Of a stretch of 64,000 bases of DNA, positions 28,573-30,941 are shown piece by piece. A program made the position numbers and the translations under genes. The stretch is from Amycolatopsis thermophila (GTDB taxonomy: Bacteria > Actinomycetota > Actinomycetes > Mycobacteriales > Pseudonocardiaceae): positions 4,154,001 to 4,218,000 of the forward strand of contig NZ_JAUSUT010000001.1 in NCBI RefSeq assembly GCF_030814215.1. The letters are read 5' to 3'. Every line of letters begins with the position of its first letter. Position 1 is the first letter of the stretch. Under the pieces are notes generated by a model. That model did not search any database and was not told the origin of the DNA. It saw only the letters and a program-made list of their open reading frames with translations.

Positions 28573-29658
28573 TCACCGCCGCGCGGAGACCGCGCCCGCC
28601 AGCCGCTCCAGCAGTTCGGCCGTGCCGGGCCAATCCAGGCACGCGTCGGTGATCGACTGCCCGTACGTCAGCTCGCCGGAGCGCCCCAGCACGAGATCCT
28701 GCCGCCCGGCCTCCAGGAAGCTTTCGAGCATGATCCCGGCGATCCCGCGCTCCCCGGCGGCGACGCGGTCGGCGATCTCCCGCGCGACCGCACCCTGGCG
28801 GACGTGGTCCTTGCCGCTGTTGCCGTGACTGGCGTCGATGATCACGCGCTCCGGCAGCCCGGCCTTCGCCTGCCGGGCGAGCGTGTCCGACACCGTCGCG
28901 GCGTCGTAGTTCGGCCCGGCCGACCCCCCGCGCAGGATGACGTGGCAGTCCGGGTTGCCGGCGGTGGTGAACAGCGCGGCGAGGCCGTCGTTGTTGATCC
29001 CGGCGAACACGTGGCTCGCCGCGGCGGCGCGGGTGGCGTCGACCGCGACCTGCACGTCGCCCTCGGTGGAGTTCTTGATCCCGACCGGCATCGACAGCGC
29101 GCTGCACAGCTGGCGGTGCACCTGGCTGGCCGCGGTCCGCGCGCCGATCGACCCCCAGCTCACGGTGTCGGCGATGAACTGCGGCGTGATCGGGTCGAGG
29201 AACTCGCACCCGACCGGCAGCCCGAGCGCGGAGATGTCGAGCAGCAGCTTGCGCGCCATCCGCAGGCCCTTGTTGACGGCGTAGCTGCCGTCCAGGTCCG
29301 GGTCGTTGATCAGGCCCTTCCAGCCCAGCGTGGTGCGCGGCTTCTCGAAGTACACGCGCATGATCACGTGCAGGTCGTCGCGCAGCGCGGCGGCCTTCTC
29401 GGCCAGGCGGTGCGCGTAGTCGAGTGCGGCCGCCGGATCGTGCACCGAGCACGGGCCGACGACGACGATCAGGCGGTCGTCGGCGCCGTCGAGGATGTCG
29501 ACGGTGGCGGCCCGGCCCTGGGCGACGGTCTTGGCGATCGCCGCGTCCACCGGCAGTTCCTGCCGGAGCAGGGCGGGGGAGATCAGCGGGCTGACGCCGA
29601 GGGTGCGCTGGTTGTCGAGGCCTTCGGTGGTGTCCGCGGGGCCTGCGCTGAGGGTCAT
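28573..29658 (-). CDS. aroG: DAHP synthase, class I (AroF/G/H type)
   Basis: A 361-aa enzyme that condenses phosphoenolpyruvate and erythrose-4-phosphate, the first step of aromatic amino acid synthesis. Type I motifs are VVVGPCSVHDP, MRVYFEKPRTTLGWKGL, GCEFLDPI, GIKNSTEGD, IIDASHGNSGKDH and MLESFLEAGRQ. ATG 29658 has AAAGGA 12 nt upstream. Between the promoter and this start lies a short ORF with Tyr-Phe-Trp-Phe codons, so attenuation by aromatic amino acids is likely. Most actinobacteria use the type II enzyme, so this may be an additional isozyme. Divergent from the PPi-phosphofructokinase gene. Confidence 0.93.
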   Translation of the reverse strand: MTLSAGPADTTEGLDNQRTLGVSPLISPALLRQELPVDAAIAKTVAQGRAATVDILDGADDRLIVVVGPCSVHDPAAALDYAHRLAEKAAALRDDLHVIMRVYFEKPRTTLGWKGLINDPDLDGSYAVNKGLRMARKLLLDISALGLPVGCEFLDPITPQFIADTVSWGSIGARTAASQVHRQLCSALSMPVGIKNSTEGDVQVAVDATRAAAASHVFAGINNDGLAALFTTAGNPDCHVILRGGSAGPNYDAATVSDTLARQAKAGLPERVIIDASHGNSGKDHVRQGAVAREIADRVAAGERGIAGIMLESFLEAGRQDLVLGRSGELTYGQSITDACLDWPGTAELLERLAGAVSARR

Positions 29659-29702
29659 TGCGGGGGGTTCCTTTCGGTGACCGGCCCGCGTGAGTCCCTG
29701 CC

Positions 29703-29724
29703 GAGCCGGTCGATCATCCGGCTC
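29703..29724 (-). promoter_or_regulatory. hairpin between leader peptide and aroG
   Basis: On the minus-strand mRNA GAGCCGG, an 8-nt loop and CCGGCTC. It starts 12 nt after the leader stop codon. Its arms could also pair with the GCCGGC segment within the leader ORF, allowing alternative folds. No U-run follows. Confidence 0.5.
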
Positions 29725-29736
29725 CAGGGTGGAAGG

Positions 29737-29805
29737 TCAGCGCGCAGCGAGGCCGCCGGCTGGCCCACCCAGGGCCGGCCCGCTAAACCAGAAATAGCGC
29801 TGCAC
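29737..29805 (-). CDS. aromatic leader peptide of aroG (attenuator)
   Basis: A 22-codon ORF, GTG at 29805 to TGA at 29737, reading VQRYFWFSGPALGG... then Pro/Ala/Gly/Leu-rich. Residues 4-7 are Tyr-Phe-Trp-Phe, a combination very unlikely by chance in such GC-rich DNA (codons TAT, TTC, TGG, TTT), and all three end products of the pathway are present. TAGGGT ends 7 nt before the GTG, so the transcript should be leaderless. The stop lies 78 nt before the aroG ATG, leaving room for the hairpin. Ribosome stalling at these codons when aromatic amino acids are scarce would control aroG. The sequence is direct; the mechanism is inference from known trp/phe leaders. Confidence 0.78.
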   Translation of the reverse strand: MQRYFWFSGPALGGPAGGLAAR

Positions 29806-29812
29806 GGAACCG

Positions 29813-29818
29813 ACCCTA
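29813..29818 (-). promoter_or_regulatory. -10 element of aroG leader transcript
   Basis: TAGGGT on the minus strand, 7 nt before the leader GTG at 29805. Confidence 0.55.
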
Positions 29819-29915
29819 GCACCCCGTCCCGCCGCTTTACCGATCAAGGGTGACTACCGCTACGCTGGCGCTCGCCAGGTGTGAGCAGCACAACTTTTTT
29901 CGGAGGTCTGATCAG

Positions 29916-30941
29916 ATGCGTGTCGGCGTGCTGACCGGTGGCGGCGACTGCCCCGGGCTCAACGCGGTGATCCGCGCCGTGGTCCGCAAGGGCATCGAGG
30001 TGCACGGCTGGGAGGTCGTGGGCTTCCGCTCCGGCTGGCGCGGGCCGCTGACCGGGGACAGCCGCCCGCTCGGCCTCGACGACGTCGAGGAGATCCTCGC
30101 CCGCGGCGGGACCATCCTCGGCTCCTCGCGGACCAATCCCTACCAGGAGTCCGGCGGCGCGGACCGGATCAAGGCCGTGCTGGCCGAGCAGGGCGTCGAC
30201 GCGCTCATCGCGATCGGCGGCGAGGACACCCTCGGCGTGGCGCGGAAGCTGACCGACGACGGCGTCGGCGTGGTCGGCGTGCCCAAGACCATCGACAACG
30301 ACCTCGCCGCCACCGACTACACGTTCGGCTTCGACACCGCGGTGCACATCGCCACCGAGTCCATCGACCGGCTGCGCACCACGGCGGAGTCGCACTACCG
30401 CGCGATGGTCGTCGAGGTCATGGGCCGTCACGCCGGCTGGATCGCGCTGCACTCCGGCCTGGCCGGCGGCGCGAACGTGATCCTGGTGCCGGAGCGGCCG
30501 TTCTCCGTCGAGCAGGTCGTCGAGTGGGTCGAGCGCCGCTTCGAGCGGATGTACGCGCCGATCATCGTGGTCGCGGAGGGCGCGGTGCCGCAGGGCGGTG
30601 CGGAGGTCCTCAAGACCGGCCAGAAGGACGCGTTCGGGCACGTCCAGCTCGGTGGTGTGGGCACGTGGCTGGCCGACGAGATCGCCACGCGCACCGGCAA
30701 GGAGTCGCGCGCGGTCGTGCTGGGGCACACCCAGCGCGGCGGCACGCCGACGGCCTACGACCGGGTGCTCGCGACCCGCTTCGGCCTGCACGCCGTGGAC
30801 GCCGTGGCCGACGGCGACTTCGGCACGATGGTCGCGCTGCGCGGCACCGACATCGTGCGCGTCAAGCTCGCCGAGGCCACGGCCGAGCTGAAGACCGTGC
30901 CGCCGGAGCGTTACGAAGAGGCCGAGGTCTTCTTCGGCTGA
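29916..30941 (+). CDS. pfp: PPi-dependent 6-phosphofructokinase
   Basis: A 341-aa enzyme; ATG 29916 has GGAGG 9 nt upstream. Opening MRVGVLTGGGDCPGLNAVIRAVV. The donor-site signature is GGEDTLG and PKTIDND: Asp replaces the Gly of ATP enzymes and Lys the second Gly, which marks pyrophosphate as phosphoryl donor. Motifs MGRHAGWIAL and GHTQRGGTPTAYDR bind fructose-6-phosphate. The sequence agrees with my recollection of the Amycolatopsis methanolica enzyme. The PPi reaction is reversible. It is divergent from aroG, which draws on the same sugar-phosphate pool. Confidence 0.93.
   Translation: MRVGVLTGGGDCPGLNAVIRAVVRKGIEVHGWEVVGFRSGWRGPLTGDSRPLGLDDVEEILARGGTILGSSRTNPYQESGGADRIKAVLAEQGVDALIAIGGEDTLGVARKLTDDGVGVVGVPKTIDNDLAATDYTFGFDTAVHIATESIDRLRTTAESHYRAMVVEVMGRHAGWIALHSGLAGGANVILVPERPFSVEQVVEWVERRFERMYAPIIVVAEGAVPQGGAEVLKTGQKDAFGHVQLGGVGTWLADEIATRTGKESRAVVLGHTQRGGTPTAYDRVLATRFGLHAVDAVADGDFGTMVALRGTDIVRVKLAEATAELKTVPPERYEEAEVFFG

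Follow-up and report, generated by a model that had tools for sequence, protein, structure and literature searches.

Enterobacterial trp and phe leaders each respond to one amino acid, carry a U-tailed terminator and give the leader peptide an ordinary ribosome binding site, while in erm-type translational attenuators a drug-induced stall covers segment 1 and the resulting change of pairing opens the Shine-Dalgarno sequence. The nearest known system to the locus described here, closer than the trp and phe leaders, is AroR, the attenuator upstream of aroF in Corynebacterium glutamicum (Neshat et al. 2014, as related in the available parts of PMC11802643 and PMC4046766). According to the accessible text of PMC11802643, AroR has Phe-Tyr-Phe codons, acts transcriptionally and is raised under phenylalanine limitation, and tyrosine availability is reported to be without effect on the operon. 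Leaderless poly-cysteine ORFs have been described in mycobacteria, in which the speed of translation controls downstream translation (Canestrari et al. 2020, in the available part of PMC9031893). In the portions accessible to us, a 2005 survey reports no conserved RNA structures upstream of phenylalanine/tyrosine operons in Actinobacteria (PMC1262725), and a list of eight S. lividans leader peptides contains none for DAHP synthase (PMC8079986). Within a literature search of partial coverage, taking in few subscription journals, AroR was found for C. glutamicum and nothing on an aroG leader in other genera.

The window analysed here, a stretch of 64,000 nucleotides from Amycolatopsis thermophila, carries aroG on its minus strand (28573-29658, ATG at 29658), the regulated gene of this study, whose 361-residue product matches the class I DAHP synthase profile (DAHP_synth_1, PF00793, E 3.5e-84); the closest named aroG genes are those of Amycolatopsis thermalba and A. 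deserti, at 94% identity. Upstream on the same strand lies a leader ORF of 22 codons plus TGA (VQRYFWFSGPALGGPAGGLAAR, 29737-29805), identified by reading of the frame and by its relatives in other genomes, which begins GTG CAG CGC TAT TTC TGG TTT AGC and ends CGC TGA, with the control codons TAT TTC TGG TTT at 29785-29796. The ORF, a TAGGGT -10 element 7 nt ahead of it (29813-29818) and a hairpin before aroG (29724-29703), all listed in the earlier note, were found again on the minus strand. The aroG Shine-Dalgarno sequence is AAAGGA (29669-29674). A phosphofructokinase gene (PF00365) is divergent from aroG on the far side of the leader, so that one short intergenic region (29806-29916) is common to both; a GATCGGT stretch 5' of the -10 element recurs in several relatives and may be an operator or belong to a -35 element. 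Rfam gave no matches in the window, the best for the leader being mir-1234 at E 0.6, far under the cut-off. The second DAHP synthase in the A. thermophila genome is of class II. Reading of the 600 bases before it revealed no leader ORF, and a TATCCT box lies just 5' of its probable GTG start (L001, G000:C1:4017742), suggesting that this gene may be leaderless and constitutive.

Like AroR, the locus places consecutive aromatic codons in a leader peptide before a DAHP synthase gene; unlike AroR, described in the sources available as Phe-Tyr-Phe without Trp and as transcriptional, its codons are those for Tyr-Phe-Trp-Phe, it lacks a terminator and a Shine-Dalgarno switch is predicted for it. With the enterobacterial trp and phe leaders it shares control codons for a product of the pathway and mutually exclusive helices that start in the leader ORF (PMC11802643, accessible text), and it differs from them in covering three amino acids, in being apparently leaderless and in lacking a terminator. 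The mycobacterial poly-cysteine ORFs are similar in that translation speed in a leaderless short ORF controls downstream translation, whereas they use cysteine and the available part of PMC9031893 does not mention a helix chain. As in erm-type attenuators, the stalled ribosome proposed here would shift the pairing so that the Shine-Dalgarno sequence opens, although the stall would come from codon starvation and would expose segment 1. Set beside AroR, the aroG leader extends AroR-like control to many genera and would add Trp, a start-codon lock and a Shine-Dalgarno output. Among small-genome relatives, judged probably to be Corynebacterium, the class I gene was present in 8 of the 34 searched, with an aromatic leader of the RFYF, AYWRF or QYY type at six of the eight loci; GGCTCC/GGAGCC-like segments stand beside a hairpin with a T-rich tail at L201, L204, L205 and L206. 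The published primer for C. glutamicum aroR had no match in 301 genomes, and homology to AroR is therefore argued from relatives.

Class I DAHP synthase homologues were present in 94 of 150 family genomes, and among the 30 best-scoring loci 29 (all but L022) had the leader before aroG, as did 29 of 40 more distant copies chosen by hand from the family list. The pattern TAYTTYTGGTTYNNNNNNCCNGC occurred once each in 33 of the 150 family genomes, and its backward-read control gave none among the matches listed. In named genomes, the leader recurs in Amycolatopsis, Rhodococcus, Nocardia, Pseudonocardia, Prauserella, Saccharomonospora, Micromonospora, Kribbella, Actinoplanes, Jiangella, Isoptericola and one Acidimicrobiales MAG; no such leader was seen upstream of the homologues from Chloroflexi, myxobacterial, deltaproteobacterial and Opitutia records or from three actinobacterial MAGs (L174, L194, L195), and the L176 record holds just 190 upstream bases. 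The pool of 169 loci, in which some genomes were met twice, gave 144 with a candidate leader, 142 of these with a gene start and 129 distinct; L200 is a false pick among the 129, and 128 distinct leaders, the window's included, lie upstream of class I aroG. The 25 loci without a candidate include L079 and L159, where the leader is present and was missed by the regular expression. Pairing tests used 126 leaders (without L150, L160 and L200), and alignment A1 contains 45 of 51 representatives, L011, L016, L141, L170, L186 and L196 having been removed by hand for long leaders, doubtful gene starts or distant lineages.

A covariance model, R1, built from the 45 A1 leaders gave 72 matches in 71 of the 150 family genomes, of which 68 immediately precede class I aroG, in a search where many training sequences come from the same genomes and match by construction and where the filters lose weak matches. 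The other matches comprise a strong one in G116, an assembly with gene fragments only, and three weak ones (E 0.002 to 0.0096). The earlier note had made its reading depend on the short ORF being conserved in relatives, and the ORF proved to be kept in many actinobacterial families, together with its aromatic codons, the -10 spacing and the hairpin. The aroG leader belongs to an RNA switch conserved among actinobacteria, which probably raises synthesis of the enzyme as aromatic amino acids run short at the ribosome. At two loci of one genus, L022 and L066, segments 2-4 (defined below) are kept and the leader ORF is without its usual start and aromatic run; R1 still matches both genomes (G091, G063). 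In five genomes of the same family (G085, G107, G124, G054 and G015) there are three to four class I DAHP synthase matches, with the element before only one.

The spacing of the -10 element points to a leaderless transcript. In the 129 leaders, a TAnnnT motif ends 7 nt (104 leaders) or 6 nt (17) before the leader start, a count that is mildly circular because candidate starts with a -10 element were preferred during leader picking, and no TAnnnT is seen at the own start codons of the aroG genes of the same leaders. This is the pattern expected of a leaderless transcript, and the mRNA is predicted to start at the leader GTG (29805). A sigma-70 consensus scan found no promoter; the scan demands a -35 element, and none is obvious at the leader.

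Trp was present in 125 of the 128 leaders, Phe in 127, Tyr in 126 and all three in 122. These aromatic residues are written with TTT rather than TTC (132 vs 75) and with TAT rather than TAC (118 vs 15), opposite to the usage of five ORFs of the window (TTT 1, TTC 49, TAT 1, TAC 50), and in A1 the last Phe codon is TTT in 45/45 and TGG is kept in 44/45. Further along the A1 leaders, the Ala codon is GCC and one Gly codon GGG in all 45, and the codon before the Ala, at the Pro position, keeps a third-base G in 45/45 with the residue changed in four. That synonymous positions of conserved codons are frozen indicates that the RNA is constrained. In 97 of 126 leaders there are 6 nt between the last aromatic codon (TTT, TTC or TAT) and segment 1, close to the spacing at which, as known from frameshift signals, a downstream helix can abut a ribosome.

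For the analysis of pairing, segments were numbered along the mRNA, all on the minus strand of the window. Segment 0 (CAGCGC, 29797-29802) spans codons 2-3 and has as its partner segment 0' (GCGCTG, 29738-29743) at the leader stop codon, both assigned by comparison of own with swapped pairs, and changes in segment 0 are compensated in other genera. Segment 1 (CCGGCC CTG GGTGGG, 29764-29778), defined by pairing, codon and alignment tests, starts 6 nt past the TTT codon. Segment 2 (TCCACCC TG GAGCCGG, 29718-29733), from pairing tests, can pair with 1 or 3; segment 3 (GACCGGCTC, 29703-29711), from pairing and alignment, with 2 or 4; and segment 4 (GCGGGCCGGTC, 29679-29689), from pairing, alignment and folding, with 3 or 5. 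The hairpin 2:3 (29703-29724) reads GAGCCGG-8 nt-CCGGCTC and is visible in the sequence and the alignment. Segment 5 (CCCGC, 29660-29664), from pairing and folding, occupies the gap between the Shine-Dalgarno sequence and AUG and with segment 4 closes a hairpin around the former. Helices 1:2, 2:3 and 3:4 thus form a mutually exclusive series that starts inside the ORF. The leaders were divided into group 1 (83, short spacer, window included) and group 2 (43, longer spacer).

Own segments paired better than segments swapped among dissimilar representatives, in permutations that do not fully correct for relatedness. With 48 representatives, 1:2 gave -28.5 vs -24.4 kcal/mol and 3:4 gave -18.2 vs -15.9 kcal/mol, each reached in 0 of 5000 permutations; 0:0' gave -11.4 vs -9.5 (0/5000, 37 representatives) with a silent control window, and 4:5 gave -12.8 vs -10.5 (0/5000, 35 representatives of the window's group) with a silent 3:5 control. 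The result for 2:3 was also 0/5000, with segment 3 having been picked by its match to segment 2. A finer scan of 66 window pairs per group placed 3x4, 4x5 and 2bx3 at the top in group 1, and 3x4, 1ax2b and 2bx3 at the top in group 2, where 4x5 fell outside the best 14 and 1a:1c was without support. In the same scan, 1:2 and 0:0' reached z -2.2 to -2.6 in group 1, where some pairs outside the model were as strong (z to -2.4), and in group 2 the aromatic codons with 1c and 1b, also outside the model, reached -3.5 and -3.3 compared to -3.2 for 0:0'.

On the alignment, 3:4 was paired in 89% of cells, compared to 33-66% for slid versions. Cells with both bases changed numbered 42, compared to 20.9 in shuffles (0/500), and the covariation score was 0.245, compared to 0.169 (0/500), while the number of 3:4 pairs with double changes (41/500) and of pair types (466/500) did not go beyond shuffles. 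Helix 2:3 was paired in 95.8% of cells, equal to shuffles because its segments are almost invariant, and no covariation was found for it on the alignment. Codons of segment 1 change together with bases downstream: in a comparison that left 8 of 126 leaders unparsed, GAT goes with a downstream CCATC in 6 of 7 leaders, compared to 5 of 65 for GGT, and AGT goes with CCACTT in 4 of 5, compared to 0 of 65 for GGT, those four looking like one lineage. This joint change of leader codons and downstream bases supports the interpretation given in the earlier note. Judged by these comparisons of sequence, helices 1:2, 3:4 and 0:0' are supported, as is, in the window's group, 4:5 around the Shine-Dalgarno sequence.

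Given the ORF, its conservation, the own-pair signals of 0:0', 1:2, 3:4 and 4:5, the near-universal 2:3 and the predicted folds, all read from sequence, the presence of an aromatic-responsive attenuator of some kind before aroG is a strong claim and very probably correct. From the same material we infer that the leader is translated, that ribosomes stall on it and which sign the response has. The attenuator would sense charged tRNA for aromatic amino acids, with aroG translation as its output. With aromatic tRNAs plentiful, the ribosome would reach the leader stop and cover the 5' part of segment 2, so that segment 2b would pair with 3, segment 4 would be left free and 4:5 would close around the Shine-Dalgarno sequence, shutting aroG. 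Untranslated RNA would mostly take the same off fold, with the leader start held by its own stop region through 0:0'. When an aromatic codon is starved, the ribosome would halt over segment 0 with its leading edge short of segment 1, and the exposed segment 1 would form 1:2, leaving 3 to pair with 4, opening 4:5 and allowing aroG to be translated. If 4:5 hides the Shine-Dalgarno sequence, the on state needs 3:4 and hence 1:2, which is possible only when the stalled ribosome keeps clear of segment 1. A stall at any of the earlier codons would then have the same effect, and the mixed Tyr-Phe-Trp-Phe leader would be accounted for. We offer the switch's direction and its any-of-three logic as proposals, and for the window's lineage we hold this translational version, in which the ribosome-mediated attenuator exposes segment 1, with slightly less than even confidence.

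Folding agreed with the proposed switch in part. For the window's leader RNA without a ribosome, the predicted fold comprised 2:3, 4:5, a hairpin internal to the leader and a register-shifted helix of the 0:0' kind; with a ribosome on the last Phe codon (edge +8) the prediction became 1:2 and 3:4. The stretch from the Shine-Dalgarno sequence to AUG in the window was predicted to be unpaired at 0.81 with the ribosome stalled at TTT, compared to 0.54 for naked RNA, 0.57 at the stop and 0.62 at Tyr, and the Shine-Dalgarno core alone showed no opening in the folding test. Across the 83 group 1 leaders (edge +8), a ribosome at the last aromatic codon let 1:2 and 3:4 both prevail over their rivals in 39; the count was 25 for one at the first aromatic codon, 10 for naked RNA and 2 for one at the stop. 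Helices 2:3 and 4:5 both prevailed in 24, 31, 51 and 70 leaders, in the same order. With the edge at +11, both on-helices prevailed in only 6 of 83, indicating that the predicted switch depends on the assumed footprint. A stall at the first aromatic codon left the initiation region more open (by >0.03) than a ribosome at the stop did in 60 leaders and less open in 6. The 25 of 83 for first-codon stalls and the value of 0.62 at Tyr in the window weaken the any-codon idea, and the reported insensitivity of the C. glutamicum operon to Tyr, in the accessible part of PMC11802643, also counts against the proposal. Detailed folding of seven leaders showed the switch as drawn in only two, L002 and L004, which come from one genus; L008, L010 and L026 remain off, and L108 and L132 pair segment 4 with segment 1.

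The classical trp-type order would read the same chain differently, with the stalled ribosome covering segment 1 so that 2:3 forms, preventing 3:4, and aroG is on, and with 3:4 as an off structure that would crowd the ribosome binding site or terminate without a U tail. The series 1:2, 2:3, 3:4 is indeed that of trp attenuators, a stalled ribosome with the wide footprint (+11) favours 2:3 on average, and in 12 of 126 leaders a further Trp codon abuts segment 1, so that a ribosome stalled on it would cover the segment, which counts against the exposure model. However, the usual 6 nt places the last aromatic codon ahead of segment 1 and not inside it, and 3:4 leaves the Shine-Dalgarno sequence unburied, while a freed segment 4 allows 4:5, which can bury it. 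A masked segment 1 with 3:4 hiding the Shine-Dalgarno sequence was not our first choice; it was ranked lower because folding shows no such burial by 3:4 and because 4:5 has an own-pair signal, and we consider the trp-type order quite unlikely. An effector role of the leader peptide itself, or of an RNA-bound protein, would make the aromatic codons incidental and could appeal to the SGPAxGG motif and final Arg that are also conserved beyond the aromatics, but conservation reaches synonymous positions, as segments 1 and 0' explain, and this seems very improbable. Short ORFs are common in the window, and the leader might in principle be a chance ORF in a G+C-rich spacer, an idea that is refuted by its conservation in many genera with the -10 element, aromatic codons and paired segments and that can be dismissed for practical purposes.

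The remaining alternative to a translational, segment-1-exposing attenuator is that the window's attenuator works transcriptionally, like AroR by the published account, with Rho or a hairpin lacking a U tail (2:3 or 3:4) ending the transcript. The description of AroR in C. glutamicum as transcriptional is in favour of this, as are related leaders in other families with U-tailed hairpins: such a hairpin lies between leader and gene in 30 of the 43 group 2 leaders, compared to 5 of the 83 in group 1. In contrast, the window has neither a U-tailed hairpin nor a terminator-like site before aroG, and 4:5 around the Shine-Dalgarno sequence has an own-pair signal in the window's group, making transcriptional control there unlikely, though a serious candidate. 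Attenuation had been proposed in the earlier note by analogy with trp and phe leaders; this reading is supported by the conserved ORF, codons and helices, but the U-tailed terminator of those systems is not found in this lineage and AroR is the closer precedent. Where read in group 2 (for example L073, L075-L078 and L111-L115), the terminator-like hairpin sits between segments 2 and 3, and by reading its stem overlaps neither 1:2 nor 2:3, the window-pair scan having left out the terminator arms. We considered whether 1:2 or 2:3 might control this terminator and set the idea aside, as no overlapping pairing was seen.

DAHP synthase governs the flux into the shikimate pathway, the source of many actinobacterial antibiotics. 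Put in its widest form, the proposal describes a widespread and so far undescribed actinobacterial OR-gate RNA switch for three amino acids that works by exposing segment 1. Over evolution its output would have shifted between a terminator and a hairpin around the Shine-Dalgarno sequence, and pairing with the leader's stop region would lock the leaderless start codon; we advance this tentatively and, taken whole, think it somewhat doubtful. If true, the OR-gate reading would amount to one sensor for the end products of a whole pathway. Exact codons and helices are now available for mutation in producer strains, and whether a single leader can report three amino acids at once becomes testable. 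The element, which has no Rfam match, fills in many genera the gap left by the 2005 survey (PMC1262725, as far as its text was available).

Two Rhizobiales genomes have, before a class I DAHP synthase, a Tyr/Phe-rich leader of unrelated sequence (MSxxYAYASRFYSYRCSQRRRACA) and behind it a U-tailed hairpin; the leader begins 184 nt (L188) or 145 nt (L200) ahead of the DAHP synthase match, and this is apparently an independent attenuator.
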